A stretch of DNA of 64,000 bases, taken from NCBI GenBank assembly GCA_038873195.1, contig JAVZEV010000001.1, positions 524,490 to 588,489 of the forward strand. Direction: 5' to 3'. The stretch is from Candidatus Bathyarchaeia archaeon (GTDB lineage Archaea; Thermoproteota; Bathyarchaeia; Bathyarchaeales; Bathycorpusculaceae). Of the stretch, positions 20,229 to 31,369 are shown piece after piece. Position 1 is the first letter of the stretch, and each line of letters begins with the position of its first letter. The position numbers and the translations under genes were made by a program. The notes beneath the pieces are model-generated. The model was not told where the DNA came from and ran no database searches. It saw only the letters and a list, made by a program, of their open reading frames with translations.

Positions 20229-20272
20229 TTCAACCTATATAAGGGAGGGGTATAGCTGCGCAGAGCACAAAA
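20229..20272 (-). repeat. Left copy of a 45-nt inverted repeat flanking the 23S block
   Basis: Read on the minus strand, this segment contains TTTTGTGCTCTG, a 10-nt variable part, then CCCCTCCCTTATAT and TTGAA. The same blocks in the same order occur on the plus strand at 24300-24345. The TATA-like core here probably serves the OsmC gene. Confidence 0.7.
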
Positions 20273-20317
20273 GATACGTTACATATCAGAGAAAAAATTT
20301 TGCTTTTCCAGCAGAAT

Positions 20318-24291: not shown

Positions 24292-24299
24292 TTTAATGC

Positions 24300-24345
24300 T
24301 TTTGTGCTCTGTAGCGTTAGACCCCTCCCTTATATATAAGTTGAA
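24300..24345 (+). repeat. Right copy of the inverted repeat flanking the 23S block
   Basis: Shares TTTTGTGCTCTG, CCCCTCCCTTATAT and TTGAA with the minus strand of 20229-20272. It includes TATATATAAG, which would fire rightwards, but no plus-strand gene follows for 1 kb. Confidence 0.65.
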
Positions 24346-26392: not shown

Positions 26393-27244
26393 GTGGTCAA
26401 ATTGTGCACCTACCAACTCATCTGGAAAGGTGTGCAGCAAACAACCCAACAATATTACGAACCGTTAAACATGGGAAGAATAATACTTTTTGACAAAAAC
26501 CAAAAAATTTACGGCATCATTATCCAATCGAAAATAGAGCAGGGTGTGCTTCGAAAAATCGCTGAGTTGGCAGAAAAACTCGGTGTTATAGTTCGATACA
26601 TTCAGATTTCCATGCCAAAAGCACATGAACCCACGATCACTGCAATAGCATTTATAGATTTCTCAAATTCAAAGACTACTCCAGAAAAAGCTTTGGAACT
26701 TGTTAAAAAACAAAAATTCATTAAAACTGCTCATATTATAAAACCAAAAAGAGAAGGCATAATTTTTGATAGTTACTTTTTTCCACTAATCGCAGAAGAT
26801 GAAAGAGCTGTTATATTCCGGAGGTCGGTTTACGAAGCATTATTTAATGGTGTCAGAAGAAAATTTGGTTCAGCAGGCGAAGCCATGTTATATTATGAAG
26901 GATTTGCAGTAGGTTTTGAAATCTATGACAGATACATGAAAGCTGCCAATTCAGAAAATCTGGAGGATATAGTCGAAGTTGCAAAAGCAGTCAACATGAC
27001 ACTAGGCTGGGGAATAATTGACAAAATAAGAATAGATGTAGAAAAAAGAGCGGCTCGAGTGCGAATACACCAAAATTTCGAATGCGAACTAAGCGAAAAC
27101 AACGGAAAACCCTACAGCCAATTCTACAGAGGCGCGATTGCTGGACTTTTCACCCGCTTCTTCAAAAAAGACGTGAAAGTTCAAGAAACCAAATGCATTG
27201 CAAAAGGAGACCCATACTGCGAATTCACCATCAAAAGCCTCTGA
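26393..27244 (+). CDS. V4R-domain protein with N-terminal ACT-like domain
   Basis: A 283-residue protein. The C-terminal domain ends in TKCIAKGDPYCEF, the Cys-x4-Gly-x3-Cys-x-Phe signature of V4R (4-vinyl reductase-like) small-molecule or metal binding domains. The first 120 residues form a regulatory beta-alpha domain (EQGVLRKIAELAEKLGV) like ACT. It is likely a ligand sensor. Its stop is 13 nt before the left target-site copy of the Cas1 element. GTG start used; an ATG at 26471 (MGRIILFD) is an alternative. A TATA-like AAGTATATATG lies near 26348. Confidence 0.72.
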   Translation: MVKLCTYQLIWKGVQQTTQQYYEPLNMGRIILFDKNQKIYGIIIQSKIEQGVLRKIAELAEKLGVIVRYIQISMPKAHEPTITAIAFIDFSNSKTTPEKALELVKKQKFIKTAHIIKPKREGIIFDSYFFPLIAEDERAVIFRRSVYEALFNGVRRKFGSAGEAMLYYEGFAVGFEIYDRYMKAANSENLEDIVEVAKAVNMTLGWGIIDKIRIDVEKRAARVRIHQNFECELSENNGKPYSQFYRGAIAGLFTRFFKKDVKVQETKCIAKGDPYCEFTIKSL

Positions 27245-27257
27245 AATATCAACAGTG

Positions 27258-27270
27258 TTAAAATTTTTAT
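27258..27270. repeat. Left target-site duplication of the Cas1 element
   Basis: TTAAAATTTTTAT, identical to 31126-31138. With the preceding G it is 14 bp on both sides, close to the 14-15 bp duplications reported for casposons. Confidence 0.88.
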
Positions 27271-27299
27271 CCCAAACCCAAACCCAAAAAAATCGGAAA
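27271..27299 (+). repeat. Left terminal inverted repeat
   Basis: Three CCC blocks spaced by AAA, then AAAAAAATCGGAAA. The complement occurs at 31091-31119, matching over all 29 nt. Confidence 0.9.
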
Positions 27300-27374
27300 A
27301 CCTACGGTTTTCCATACCTTTCCCTTTTTGAAAACTTAAAGTTTAAAATTTGGTGTTAGGTGTTTAGGTTATTT

Positions 27375-27454
27375 GGGAATAGGACATGGGTTAAATGGGT
27401 TTCTGAAAACCTATTTCTCTTATCTCCAATTAGAGAAACCCGTGTTCTATTCCC
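27375..27454 (+). repeat. Long imperfect hairpin upstream of cas1
   Basis: GGGAATAGGACATGGGTT (27375-27392) is complementary to AACCCGTGTTCTATTCCC (27437-27454) with two G-U or mismatch positions, and the inner GGGTTTCT/AGAAACCC gives an alternative pairing. It lies between the left repeat and cas1 and could be a regulator, transposase-binding or replication site. Confidence 0.7.
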
Positions 27455-27503
27455 TTTAAATTGAAAAAGAAACTTTTATTAAAGCGGTATTTCCTAAATA
27501 ACA

Positions 27504-28556
27504 ATGGAGATAAGAGAAATGGGAAAAGAGAAAGCAGAAAAGATTATTCTGTCTGATTATGGATGTTTTTTGGGAATGCAGAAGGGATGTTACATTCTTA
27601 AAGACAGACATGGAAACATAAAGAAGTTTCCACAGTTAGAAGCTGAAATCGGAGAAGTTGTTTTGATGAGTGGAAACATGGTTTCTACGGGTGTTTTGGC
27701 GTCTTTTGGTTATTGGGATATTGACGTTTTGGTGGCTACTCGGAACGGTAAACCCGTTGCTATACTTAAAAGTTTAGATGATGACAGTCACGTAAAAACT
27801 AGAATTTGCCAGTATGAAGCTTTTAAAAATGGAAAAAGCATTGAAATAGCCAAAACAATTTTGAAAGCTAAAATTGAAGGTCAAAATCAAATACTTAAGA
27901 AATACGGGTTGAAACAGCATGATATTGTTGGTTTAAGAGAAAGGATTAATGCTTTAAAAAGCAAAAAAATAATGGAAATTCGCAGAAAATTAATAGGAAT
28001 TGAAGGAAAACACACCAAAAAATACTTCAACCAGATTTTTCAGTTGTTTCCAGAACCTTTAAGGGTTGAACGCAGACGGTCATATAAAGCGTATGACGGA
28101 ATTAACAACCTTTTCAATTTGGCTTATGAAATACTCTATTACAAATGTTATCAAGCATTAATTAAAACTCATTTAGAACCTTTTCTAGGGTTTGTTCACG
28201 CATTGGAATATTCAAAGCCGAGTTTAGTGTTGGATTTCCAAGAAGTTTACCGTTATTTGGTTGATGATTTTGTAATTGAGTATGCTCAAGACTTAAAGCT
28301 TAAAGACTTCATAAGCAAAACAGAAATTGTTTCGAGAGATAAGCTGGGAAAACGCATTTATCTTAACAATGCGAAAACTAAAGATTTTCTTGTTGAATTG
28401 CATGGTTATTTTAAACGTAAAGTAGATGTTCCTAGAATAAAACATGGTTTTAAATGTGAAATTGAAACGTTAATTTTTGAGGAGGCTATGCTTTTGGCTA
28501 AATATTTACGGAATGAACGGCAAAAATGGTTTCCTAGAATAGTCAACCTTTCGTGA
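27504..28556 (+). CDS. cas1: Cas1 family integrase (casposase-like)
   Basis: A 350-residue Cas1 homologue. The N-terminal beta domain (LSDYGCFLGMQKG, then VVLMSGNMVSTGVLASFGY and DVLVATRNGKPVA) is followed by the helical catalytic domain with Arg100-Gln103 and KAKIEGQNQIL. The metal-binding triad is present: Glu167 in GIEGKHTKKYF, His232 in GFVHAL and Glu247 in LVLDFQEVYR. There is no C-terminal helix-turn-helix extension of the kind seen in several casposases. A TATA-like TTTTATTAA about 28 nt before the ATG suggests a leaderless message. It probably integrates the element by joining 3'-OH ends to target DNA. No adaptation partner (Cas2) or array is near. Confidence 0.9.
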   Translation: MEIREMGKEKAEKIILSDYGCFLGMQKGCYILKDRHGNIKKFPQLEAEIGEVVLMSGNMVSTGVLASFGYWDIDVLVATRNGKPVAILKSLDDDSHVKTRICQYEAFKNGKSIEIAKTILKAKIEGQNQILKKYGLKQHDIVGLRERINALKSKKIMEIRRKLIGIEGKHTKKYFNQIFQLFPEPLRVERRRSYKAYDGINNLFNLAYEILYYKCYQALIKTHLEPFLGFVHALEYSKPSLVLDFQEVYRYLVDDFVIEYAQDLKLKDFISKTEIVSRDKLGKRIYLNNAKTKDFLVELHGYFKRKVDVPRIKHGFKCEIETLIFEEAMLLAKYLRNERQKWFPRIVNLS

Positions 28557-28694
28557 ATGAACGTTTACCAACCAACCAGCAACCAACCAATAAAATAGCC
28601 TGTTCTAAGACACTTTTAAACAACAAAACAAAAACTAAACGTTCAGAAATTCAAATAAAAACGGGAAAAAACGGAATAATCGGTTGGAATAGAG

Positions 28695-29138
28695 TTAAAC
28701 GTATTCTTTTTGTTGTTTTTCTTTGTCTTGTTCTTTGATTAACCCGAAAATTTTAGCCCAAGATTCCATTCCTTCAAAAAGCCATTTGACAAATGGGTTG
28801 TATTCTGGCGTGAAAATGTGTAGTGGTGTTGGTGGAAGTTTTACTTGCTGTTTTGGTTGTTGTGGTTGTTCTGGTTGCTGTTCTGAAACGAATTCTTGTT
28901 CTTGTTGTTCTGGTTTTGGTTGTGGTTCTGAAAAGAATTCTTGTTGCGGTTCTGGTGTAATTTGCTGTTCTGGTTCTTTGGTTTTTTCTATTGTTGAAGG
29001 TTTTTGTTTTTCTGGTTTTTCTAATGTGAACACGTGTTTGTTCTTGCATCTATAACGTTGTATTCCGTCTCTTTTTCCGTGTTTGATTGCTTTTTCTCCG
29101 CATTTTGGACATTCAACTATTAAGCATTCTTCGGTCAT
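28695..29138 (-). CDS. Zinc-ribbon protein with Gln/Pro/Glu-rich linker
   Basis: A 147-residue three-part protein. Residues 9-33 form a zinc ribbon (CPKCGEKAIKHGKRDGIQRY then Cys), similar to the N-terminal ribbon of IS1-type InsA proteins. Residues about 40-105 are a low-complexity Pro/Gln/Glu linker. The C-terminus (PFVKWLFEGMESWAKIFGLI) is an amphipathic aromatic helix that could touch a membrane or partner. Last gene of the leftward array inside the Cas1 element. It could help target or regulate the element; unproven. Confidence 0.65.
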   Translation of the reverse strand: MTEECLIVECPKCGEKAIKHGKRDGIQRYRCKNKHVFTLEKPEKQKPSTIEKTKEPEQQITPEPQQEFFSEPQPKPEQQEQEFVSEQQPEQPQQPKQQVKLPPTPLHIFTPEYNPFVKWLFEGMESWAKIFGLIKEQDKEKQQKEYV

Positions 29139-29237
29139 GTTTAATCATCTCTGTATATAGCCCTATTAGACTAGTCAAAAGCATGGGAATTTTGCCACAG
29201 TTGTGGCACAATTGGGTTGAAGTCTGAAAGGGAATCA

Positions 29238-29402
29238 TTAGATAATCACATTTTCTATTTTGTCTGCAATGATTGAAGCTTTTTCTCTGATTTCTTTGGG
29301 AATCCATATTCTTTTGGGAATGTTTGTTCCGTAAATGTCAGCTAGACAAAATGCTAAGATGTTTGTTTTATCGCATTTTCTAAGTTTTGTTTTTGCAACC
29401 AT
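29238..29402 (-). CDS. Small conserved-looking fragment, possibly the 3' part of an interrupted gene
   Basis: From an internal Met (29402) 54 residues are open, ending at TAA 29238. The frame is open upstream to 29514, where it meets the stop codon of the preceding ORF in the same frame. The intervening codons read naturally (WKIYLDNEGNYWLYAFSPDG) but offer no start codon. So this is either the downstream part of a gene split by a TAA, or a short protein starting at the Met. No family recognised. Part of the Cas1 element cargo. Confidence 0.45.
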   Translation of the reverse strand: MVAKTKLRKCDKTNILAFCLADIYGTNIPKRIWIPKEIREKASIIADKIENVII

Positions 29403-29513
29403 TTTTTTACCGTCTGGACTGAAAGCATACAGCCAATAATTGCCTTCGTTGTCTAAGTAGATTTTCCAGCGATGAACGTGTGTTAGGAAAAGAAGGTTTC
29501 TGTTTTTGCGGTA

Positions 29514-29777
29514 TTAGTATTCTGTTTTTATTGGTTTTGATGTTGTATAAACTGAAAGTTTTTTGCCTTCTGGCGTGTTGTGTAAAATTTCAACTTTTAG
29601 GTTCTCCGTAGTTGTTGTGTCTTCTTTGAATTCTGGCGGTTCTGGTTCTGGCATTAGGCTTTCGAGTTTCTCTTGTGTTTTTGCTTTTTTAATGTATTTG
29701 CTGAATTGTCTTCGGGTTATTTTTTTGTTGATGTAGTCTGTGAAGGGTGTTTCAGTTTTGGTTTTTTTCTTTGTCAT
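29514..29777 (-). CDS. Small basic/acidic protein of the Cas1 element
   Basis: An 87-residue protein from the Met at 29777 (MTKKKTKTETPF). It has a Lys-rich first half (INKKITRRQFSKYIKKAKTQ) and an acidic Pro-rich second half. No family recognised. The frame continues past the TAA for 92 more codons of sensible composition, so it may be the 5' part of a larger gene. A longer ORF to 29960 in this frame overlaps two neighbours and looks spurious. Translation appears coupled to the gene upstream by a 26-nt overlap. Confidence 0.5.
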   Translation of the reverse strand: MTKKKTKTETPFTDYINKKITRRQFSKYIKKAKTQEKLESLMPEPEPPEFKEDTTTTENLKVEILHNTPEGKKLSVYTTSKPIKTEY

Positions 29778-29898
29778 TTTGCAGTTCCTTCTTTTCCGTT
29801 TCATGTTTGAGAAGGCTTTTAGCCATGAGTTTTGCTGAAAGCTCAACGGCTTTTTCTCTGATTTTGTCTTTTCTGGTTGTTTCTGTTTTGTTAGACAA
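29752..29898 (-). CDS. 48-residue charged protein of the Cas1 element
   Basis: TTG start at 29898, overlapping the stop of the previous gene by 8 nt; it reads MSNKTETTRKDKIREKAVEL and ends QNDKEKNQN. It is probably a single amphipathic helix. Too short to assign; supported only by gene packing and composition. Confidence 0.4.
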   Translation of the reverse strand: MSNKTETTRKDKIREKAVELSAKLMAKSLLKHETEKKELQNDKEKNQN

Positions 29899-30187
29899 TG
29901 TAGGCTAGTCTCCTTTGGTTGTTTTGCTCGTAGTATTCGCTTGTCTGGATTAGTATGCACAGCATTTTTAGGAATTCTTTAGGTTTAAAACGGAAAATTG
30001 TTGTTTTGTTGACTTTCCAATAGATACATTTTTGGGTTAAGTAAACTTCCGTGTTACCTGCTTTTTGTTTTCCAATTATGTTTTTTGGTAGTTTTTTGAC
30101 TTTTTGAGTTTTAATTTTTATCGGTTTTTTGGGTGGAATTTGACCTTTATAGAAAAGTTTATAAAGGTTCTCTTGCTTACTTGTCAT
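29891..30187 (-). CDS. 98-residue basic protein of the Cas1 element
   Basis: A Lys-rich protein (PPKKPIKIKTQKVKKLPKN at residues 18-36) with a more ordered C-terminal half containing EVYLTQKCIYWKVNK and FRFKPKEFLKML. The charge suggests nucleic-acid contact. AAAGGA lies about 9 nt before the ATG. It overlaps the next small ORF by 8 nt. No family recognised. Confidence 0.55.
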   Translation of the reverse strand: MTSKQENLYKLFYKGQIPPKKPIKIKTQKVKKLPKNIIGKQKAGNTEVYLTQKCIYWKVNKTTIFRFKPKEFLKMLCILIQTSEYYEQNNQRRLAYIV

Positions 30188-30220
30188 TTGTCTATCATTC
30201 CTTTTCTTTTTGTAAAGTTT

Positions 30221-30331
30221 TTAGTAAGTCTCCGTTTTCTGTTTTGGAATGAAAAGGTTAAAGAGCCATTTGAAAAAGTCTGCGATTGCATTTAGTATCA
30301 TGCTGAAAAAATTAACTATTGCGTCGAACAT
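30221..30331 (-). CDS. 36-residue aromatic amphipathic peptide
   Basis: ATG at 30331 preceded by GGTGA with a 7-nt gap. The peptide (MFDAIVNFFSMILNAIADFF, then KWLFNLFIPKQ) is a single hydrophobic or amphipathic helix rich in Phe and Trp. Such peptides are common in archaeal viruses and plasmids, as membrane or virion components. Its KWLF segment recalls the C-terminal helix of the zinc-ribbon protein in the same element. It starts 12 nt after the 181-residue gene. Confidence 0.55.
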   Translation of the reverse strand: MFDAIVNFFSMILNAIADFFKWLFNLFIPKQKTETY

Positions 30332-30343
30332 TATGGTTTCACC

Positions 30344-30889
30344 TTAAATGGTTGTGTATCTTATTGCGAAGCGTTCTCTGATTGTTATGTCCAGCAGTAA
30401 TTTGTTATTGACGTTGTCGTAGTCAATTGTTACGCCATCTGTGTCTGGTTTAAAGTATAATTCTATGTAACCGTCTTCTTGAGCAAACACGAAAGGAACG
30501 TTTACGCCAAGCTTCAGCAAATCAACTTTGCTTCTGTCAGTCGGAGAAGTCTTATTCATATAGGCTGTTCTTTTTTTGGTTATTATTTGTTTGCGAGTTT
30601 TGGGTGCGTTGCTCAAGACTATTTTAACTTCTCCTTCTATGTCGTTGTTTGATGAATCATGCAGTTCTAGATGGAATAATCCGCCTATGTATTGGTCGTA
30701 TATTTGCGGTCTTTTTCCTACTGCTACGAGTGTTTGTTTAGGTATTTTGTATTCTCCGATTAGCGTGTAACCTTCATAATCAGCAAAACCTATTCCTTCA
30801 CCCATTTTGTCTTTTAAGCATTGCACATCTTCTTTTAGGAAGTCAAATTGGGTTAACGTTTTGCTGTATTCATTGTAATTCACTGGCAT
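30344..30889 (-). CDS. 181-residue beta-rich protein, first gene of the leftward array
   Basis: A protein with many predicted beta strands (GYTLIGEYKIPKQTLVAVG, GLFHLELHDSS, EGEVKIVLSN, DGYIELYFKP, KLLLDITIRE) and no membrane segment or catalytic motif. The strand-rich layout and position as the first and best-expressed gene would suit a virion or other structural protein, but no homologue is recognised. RBS GGTGAT precedes the ATG, and a TATA box lies about 70 nt upstream at the right end of the element. Confidence 0.6.
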   Translation of the reverse strand: MPVNYNEYSKTLTQFDFLKEDVQCLKDKMGEGIGFADYEGYTLIGEYKIPKQTLVAVGKRPQIYDQYIGGLFHLELHDSSNNDIEGEVKIVLSNAPKTRKQIITKKRTAYMNKTSPTDRSKVDLLKLGVNVPFVFAQEDGYIELYFKPDTDGVTIDYDNVNNKLLLDITIRERFAIRYTTI

Positions 30890-30958
30890 TTTTTATCACC
30901 TTTTATTTTTTGTTCTTTTTTCTAGGACTAAACGTCCCAATCTATAATTTGTCAATCA

Positions 30959-30969
30959 GATATATAAAC
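30959..30969 (-). promoter_or_regulatory. TATA box for the leftward array of the Cas1 element
   Basis: On the minus strand this reads TTTATATATCT. It lies between the right terminal repeat and the 181-residue gene, and predicts a leader of about 45-50 nt containing GGTGAT. Confidence 0.6.
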
Positions 30970-31090
30970 AATTCGATGTTTTTCGAACTATGGGAATTTC
31001 CCAATATTTTATTCGAAGTCATATCGTATAAGTCAAATGATACAACACATATCTCACAACTAAAACCAGAACCTCACCCTTCCCTAACCC

Positions 31091-31125
31091 TTTCCGATTT
31101 TTTTGGGTTTGGGTTTGGGTTTGGG
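31091..31125 (-). repeat. Right terminal inverted repeat
   Basis: The complement of the left repeat, but with four GGG blocks instead of three, so it is one 6-nt TTTGGG unit longer. Confidence 0.9.
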
Positions 31126-31138
31126 TTAAAATTTTTAT
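31126..31138. repeat. Right target-site duplication of the Cas1 element
   Basis: Identical 13 bp to 27258-27270. It overlaps the TATA-like TTTTTATATT of the downstream AbrB-like gene, so insertion regenerated that promoter. Confidence 0.88.
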
Positions 31139-31195: not shown

Positions 31196-31369
31196 ATGAC
31201 CGGCGAAGGAAAAGGCAAAATCGTCGACAGAGGCAAAAAATACAGAAAAATTTTCATTTACATACCCAAAGAAGTCTCCTCTGACACAAGCTTCCCATTC
31301 AAAATAGGCGAAGATGTAACCGTAAAAATCGAAGGAAAAAAACTAATCATAGAGAAAAAACAGCAATAG
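31196..31369 (+). CDS. AbrB/SpoVT-like DNA-binding protein
   Basis: A 57-residue protein from the ATG at 31196. It reads KGKIVDRGKKYRKIFIYIPK, then GEDVTVKIEGKKLIIEK, the strand pattern of the swapped-hairpin AbrB fold found in antitoxins and regulators. It probably belongs to the chromosome, beyond the element's right end, and was the original neighbour of the V4R gene. The TATA element is in the target duplication. No toxin gene follows. Confidence 0.6.
   Translation: MTGEGKGKIVDRGKKYRKIFIYIPKEVSSDTSFPFKIGEDVTVKIEGKKLIIEKKQQ

Follow-up and report, generated by a model that had tools for sequence, protein, structure and literature searches.

A probable Cas1 integrase in a small, PolB-less, casposon-like element of Bathyarchaeia

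CRISPR adaptation has been proposed to stem from casposons. A cas1 gene that stands apart from any CRISPR locus lies in a 64-kb stretch of DNA (the window, C1:524490-588489) from a two-contig 1.63 Mb Bathyarchaeia genome that is 98% complete. An earlier note had described its product as a solo Cas1 with a complete catalytic triad, and had seen no Cas2 or repeats in the 64 kb. In agreement with this, no CRISPR-like repeat family was detected within the window, and the sole Cas2 of the genome is encoded on the other contig (C2:16770-16988), adjoined by cas4, a different cas1 and a 16-repeat array. Both cas2 and the array, which were also sought immediately outside the window, are on that other contig, and the arrangement of a CRISPR adaptation module, with cas2 and an array beside cas1, is absent at the window cas1.

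A Cas1 gene within a bounded element

The 350-aa product matched the Pfam family Cas_Cas1 (PF01867) over residues 15-289 (E 1.7e-48). Residues E167, H232 and E247, together with D244, were invariant in an 11-sequence alignment that included the host CRISPR Cas1. The first three align with the catalytic Glu/His/Glu of Archaeoglobus fulgidus Cas1 (4n06), the closest solved relative by sequence, and of the casposase of Methanosarcina mazei (6opm), which places the triad in register. A triad out of register was the outcome that might have spoken against the earlier assignment of these residues to the Cas1 metal-binding positions, and the assignment stands. Every catalytic position is conserved in the window Cas1, and the incomplete active site of Cas1-solo group 1 is therefore absent.

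The gene sits inside an element of 3,855 bp (27271-31125; Table 1), so its description as a solo Cas1 holds for the missing Cas2 and array but not in the sense of a lone gene. The element ends in a 29-nt inverted repeat with 100% complementarity (27271-27299 and 31091-31119) and telomere-like CCCAAA units, the right tip being one unit longer than the left and ending at 31125. The target-site duplication (TSD), TTAAAATTTTTAT, is 13 bp long, or 14 if the G shared with the tip is counted. In another genome of the same genus (G001; L119), the V4R and MazE/AbrB-like genes that flank the element are joined, with 92% identity over the junction, which contains one TTAAAATTTTTAT copy and no element. 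This empty site fixes the insertion at base resolution, as 3,855 bp plus a 13-bp duplication. The window element is single-copy in its genome.

Table 1. Coordinates of the window element, its genes and its host flanks (positions within the window).
Feature	Position	Strand	Remarks
Left host flank, V4R-domain gene, outside element	26393..27244	+	PF02830 E 2.8e-17; joined to right flank in G001
Left target-site duplication TTAAAATTTTTAT	27258..27270	.	Direct repeat of 31126-31138; single copy in G001 empty site
Left terminal inverted repeat, (CCCAAA)3 tip	27271..27299	+	29 nt, perfect against 31091-31119
Hairpin in cas1 leader, over start codon	27410..27523	+	19-nt arms 27410-27428/27505-27523; RNA fold z -4.87
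cas1, probable integrase/transposase of element	27504..28556	+	350 aa; PF01867; triad in register; family common to 15/15 loci
147-aa protein, N-terminal zinc ribbon, Gln/Pro/Glu-rich linker	28695..29138	-	Zn-ribbon families E 0.003-0.005, below cut-off; cysteine pattern visible
Gene interrupted by in-frame TAA at 29514-29516	29238..29777	-	tblastn: both halves match one L032 frame
98-aa ORF	29891..30187	-	ORF only, no Pfam match
181-aa protein, predicted single-jelly-roll capsid fold	30344..30889	-	L035 homologue and PDB fold matches
Right terminal inverted repeat, (CCCAAA)4 tip	31091..31125	-	
Right target-site duplication TTAAAATTTTTAT	31126..31138	.	Single copy in G001 empty site
Right host flank, small MazE/AbrB-like gene, outside element	31196..31369	+	PF04014 E 0.0095, below cut-off; joined to left flank in G001

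The host does have a CRISPR-Cas system, and the window gene could be read as one of its adaptation genes, displaced and surrounded by repeats that are incidental. The two Cas1 proteins of this genome are merely 28% identical, however, and the exact empty site in G001, together with ten insertions that have matching ends and lie at different loci (see below), effectively refutes this reading, which we regard as highly improbable. None of the host CRISPR spacers matched any element. The window Cas1 is instead very probably the integrase of the 3,855 bp element, which belongs to a Bathyarchaeia family of small PolB-less casposon-like Cas1 transposons. This assignment is based on sequence comparison, namely on the exact ends, the terminal inverted repeats (TIRs), the 13-bp TSD, the empty site, and nine relatives that are inserted elsewhere and have no gene but cas1 in common to all.

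The zinc-ribbon protein is a possible DNA-binding partner of Cas1. The homologue of the interrupted gene in L032 encodes 190 aa without interruption, and the stop codon in the window copy may reflect decay, an error in assembly or a naturally split gene. Given this in-frame stop in one ORF, the window copy of the element may be partly decayed. A Phage_integrase match in the split ORF was weak (E 0.098) and was dismissed. The hairpin in the cas1 leader was rejected as a family-wide feature because it was strong in only three of 14 relatives; like the window copy, L064 and L033 fold strongly at this position, but most relatives do not.

A family of Cas1 elements in Bathyarchaeia

Related Cas1 proteins were 44-56% identical to that of the window, with matches at E<=1e-40 in 22 of the 256 Bathyarchaeia genomes sampled (~9%). 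Many other Bathyarchaeia genomes contained decayed fragments of related Cas1, and one fragment was found beyond Bathyarchaeia, elsewhere in the phylum (G269). Bounded loci were picked by testing jointly for inverted repeats and for direct repeats at the flanks. Ten loci (the window, L028, L031, L033, L034, L035, L036, L064, L066 and L067) stood well apart from the rest, with 13-16 matches over the 16 positions of the TIR tips and lengths of 3.3-7.6 kb; the same test did not find the ends of four intact loci (L029, L030, L062 and L063). The TSDs of the ten bounded loci were 13-18 nt long and AT-rich, and nine contained an AA.?TT core, compared to 23-40% of background 14-mers. Among the loci scanned, none had a tRNA gene where the element was inserted.

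At 17 of 20 ends the tips themselves consisted of short tandem repeats; the chance of a run of at least 12 nt is 0.5% per site. Repeat units were mostly C-rich and included (CCCAAA)n, (CCCAA)n, (CCT)n, (CCTT)n and (CA)n. On the 5′ strand, G was almost absent from the first 20 nt, which makes the strand that carries the 3′-OH G-rich and telomere-like. Since the units vary while their character is constant, recognition of the ends appears to occur through a repeat or a structure and not through a single motif. The empty site and the ten bounded copies also support the earlier proposal of a Cas1 that is probably active, stands without Cas2 and goes with terminal repeats and a duplicated target. 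The earlier note mentioned neither the exact size of the element, its tandem-repeat tips and its lack of PolB, nor its capsid-like gene and its place in a wider Bathyarchaeia family.

Two elements in G001 were located directly at promoter-like CCCCCCTTATATATA sequences (L031 5505-5555 and L034 8850-8895), and the elements may prefer TATA-type sites. Similar C-rich TATATA motifs occur in the window at 20236-20273 and 24299-24336, in inverted orientation on either side of the 23S rRNA region.

Across the 15 loci that were clustered, cas1 was the sole gene family present in all. The family has only Cas1 and simple repeat tips in common, and so illustrates how modest the requirements of a Cas1 transposon are. 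A protein of about 117-180 aa with a D-x-D motif, and in most cases a YHxVF-type motif, was encoded in nine of the 15 loci; the window copy is without it. Its predicted fold was RRM/palm-like (pLDDT 83, best Z 6.8), and the top fold rows included T-antigen origin-binding domains and AEP polymerases. Pfam 'AEP-like' matches were sub-threshold (E 0.00026, 0.0016 and 0.0099), and a search against PDB sequences gave no convincing match. A primase- or Rep-like role is suggested but unproven. Four loci encoded an AAA-type ATPase, recognised by a P-loop-like segment and weak AAA-lid matches. In several elements, L062 and L028 among them, winged-HTH genes lay near cas1 or overlapped it, and their products could supply DNA recognition in trans. 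The cargo of L067 (1429-3108) appears to be a ThaI-type restriction endonuclease and a DNA methylase.

A plausible course of integration would start with a Cas1 assembly that holds both repeat tips, each with a C-rich 5′ strand and a G-rich 3′ strand. The 3′-OH of each G-rich strand would attack an AT-rich target resembling AAANTTT, so that its two strands are joined at points about 13-14 bp from each other, and gap repair would then generate the target duplication. Replication would probably be carried out by host enzymes, perhaps helped in many relatives by the element-encoded RRM-fold primase-like protein and the AAA ATPase. Additional DNA recognition may come from separate small proteins, such as the winged-HTH proteins of several relatives and the zinc ribbon of the window, and not from a fused HTH.

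Relation to casposons and to CRISPR Cas1

Casposons were defined as self-synthesising elements, with PolB in all of them and capsid genes absent (PMC4046053), and in a later review it is the cas1-polB island that defines them (PMC9939771). Pfam identified no PolB among 60 element proteins, and no PolB motifs occurred inside the elements. For lack of PolB the Bathyarchaeia elements were not filed as casposons, although they probably work in a casposon-like way. As in families 1-4, the one recombinase shared by all is a Cas1 that has no Cas2 beside it, the ends are TIRs, TSDs measure about 14 nt, small DNA-binding proteins are encoded and insertion is intergenic; in casposons, TIRs are 25-602 nt and TSDs 1-27 nt long, with a median of 15 (PMC4046053). 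They differ in being without PolB and shorter (3.3-7.6 kb compared to about 6-20 kb), in their tandem-repeat tips, in using AT-rich targets where casposons use tRNA or EF-2 genes, and in the presence of a capsid-like gene in two of them.

The absence of a C-terminal helix-turn-helix (HTH) tail is a further point of comparison. Cas1 proteins of the present family are 340-371 aa long and have no C-terminal extension, whereas open frames of family-2-like casposases are about 404-430 aa and include one. The earlier note was right that the tail is missing, but its description as usual for casposases is not supported, as it is restricted to family 2 and part of family 3, and family-1 casposases do without it (PMC4046053). 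For the same reason, its conclusion that end recognition must work differently does not follow from the missing HTH alone. The M. mazei casposase, a member of family 2, has the same Cas1 fold with catalytic residues in register, but loses integration without its HTH (PMC6977970), which suggests that the HTH-less Cas1 of Bathyarchaeia may need a further partner. With this family, the recognition of ends and targets by Cas1 can be studied in enzymes that naturally have no HTH.

In a 39-sequence tree, the Cas1 family formed one clade (100/100) on a long stem. It grouped with archaeal CRISPR Cas1, including that of the host on C2, while the casposases sampled formed a separate, supported clade (97/83, 99/96) that did not include it. 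However, a clade uniting the family with casposases was not rejected (p 0.479) by an AU test that left out two long rows and the family-1 candidate, and a firm claim of descent from CRISPR Cas1 was dropped on this account. The protein differs from CRISPR Cas1, which acts with Cas2 at an array; the window Cas1 has neither, and the element DNA itself is the cargo.

The same AU result is compatible with a true casposon, that is, a reduced offshoot of families 1-4 without its former PolB and with a Cas1 inherited from a casposase. The integrase type, TIRs and TSD length are as in casposons, and the missing HTH tail has its parallel in family 1 (PMC4046053). This origin is nevertheless somewhat doubtful, since the full tree sets the family apart from the casposase clade and no bounded element encodes the PolB that self-synthesis by the published definition demands (PMC4046053). 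We retain the description as a casposon-like family.

In the open literature, no paper on casposons was found for Bathyarchaeia and one mentions casposons as well as Bathyarchaeota, and the accessible part of a survey of Bathyarchaeia viruses (PMC10848311) names no Cas1 integrase. A family-2-like casposase whose C-terminal part is long (L100, G059:C27:12274-13221) is encoded in one Bathyarchaeia genome that also contains the PolB-less family.

A capsid-like protein and a tailed virus with the same Cas1

A single clear homologue of the 181-aa protein was found; it is encoded in the L035 element, is 43% identical and likewise starts at the element end opposite cas1. No relatives were found in IMG/VR or phage records, and the 398 phylum genomes yielded just two weak partial matches, so the predicted fold rests on a two-sequence alignment. 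The AlphaFold2 model was of low confidence (pLDDT 55.5, pTM 0.60), and its best 19 PDB fold matches (best E 6e-4) were without exception capsid proteins, from HCIV-1, HHIV-2, SH1 and P23-77. Upon realignment, capsid proteins of these viruses occupied ranks 1-8 (Z 7.5-9.4), followed by the archaeal virus SPV1 (Z 5.8) and other folds (Z<=5.4). It is unlikely that a single virus group would head the match list by accident, and the protein is likely to have a single-jelly-roll capsid fold, as modelled. It has no recognisable sequence similarity to the capsid proteins of these four viruses, a search against PDB sequences gave no convincing match, and a BFVD search gave none under E 0.001.

A genuine capsid gene at this position would connect Cas1 elements to viruses, as capsid genes did for eukaryotic polintons. 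The window branch may be, or descend from, something packaged in a capsid, which is the least certain step of the scheme proposed here. The element would then be a small virus, or a satellite dependent on a capsid, that has integrated by means of Cas1, and its transposon appearance would be that of the integrated form. The predicted capsid fold and its retention in L035, where the end-to-end layout with respect to cas1 is also the same, point in this direction, as does a head-tailed virus contig that carries the same Cas1 family (below). The capsid-like protein is carried by only two elements, however, and its fold model is of low confidence. A length of 3.9 kb is also small for SH1-like viruses, and the second capsid protein and packaging ATPase of SH1/P23-77-like viruses were not recognised: Pfam and PHROGs identified no ATPase family among the ORFs of the window element, and its other ORFs, among which a second capsid protein might lie, received no assignment. 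We consider a virus or satellite possible, but not probable.

The virus contigs were found only by a query with an alignment; a scan of viral contigs with a single Cas1 sequence gave no match. Two overlapping IMG/VR contigs of one tailed virus (L078 and L079) encode a Cas1 that is 55% identical and located beside tail genes (L078 8010-9044, with L083 4452-8828, IMG/VR 3300044799_000900); no Cas2 was seen. PHROGs matches on the virus contig included a major head protein (E 5.7e-12), portal, protease and tail proteins (one at 1.5e-17). In the tree, its Cas1 lies within the family, where the L062 protein is its sister (99/95). Around the cas1 gene of this contig, which is a fragment, neither a TIR nor a TSD was detected. 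A viral Cas1 integrase is possible in this case.

The best reading of these observations is that the PolB-less Cas1 transposon family overlaps with viruses. A wider scheme, which we advance only tentatively, would combine three elements: the 3.9 kb element as an integrated jelly-roll virus or satellite; a Cas1 lineage that also serves a head-tailed archaeal virus, so that Cas1 integrases pass between transposons and viruses; and telomere-like G-rich ends recognised without a fused HTH.

A distant Cas1 match in MT836291.1 (L128), deposited in GenBank as 'Bacteriophage sp.' from faeces, was set aside because this record looks like a bacterial type I CRISPR-cas contig. Cas8, Cas7, Cas4, Cas1 and a repeat array were recognised in it by eye.
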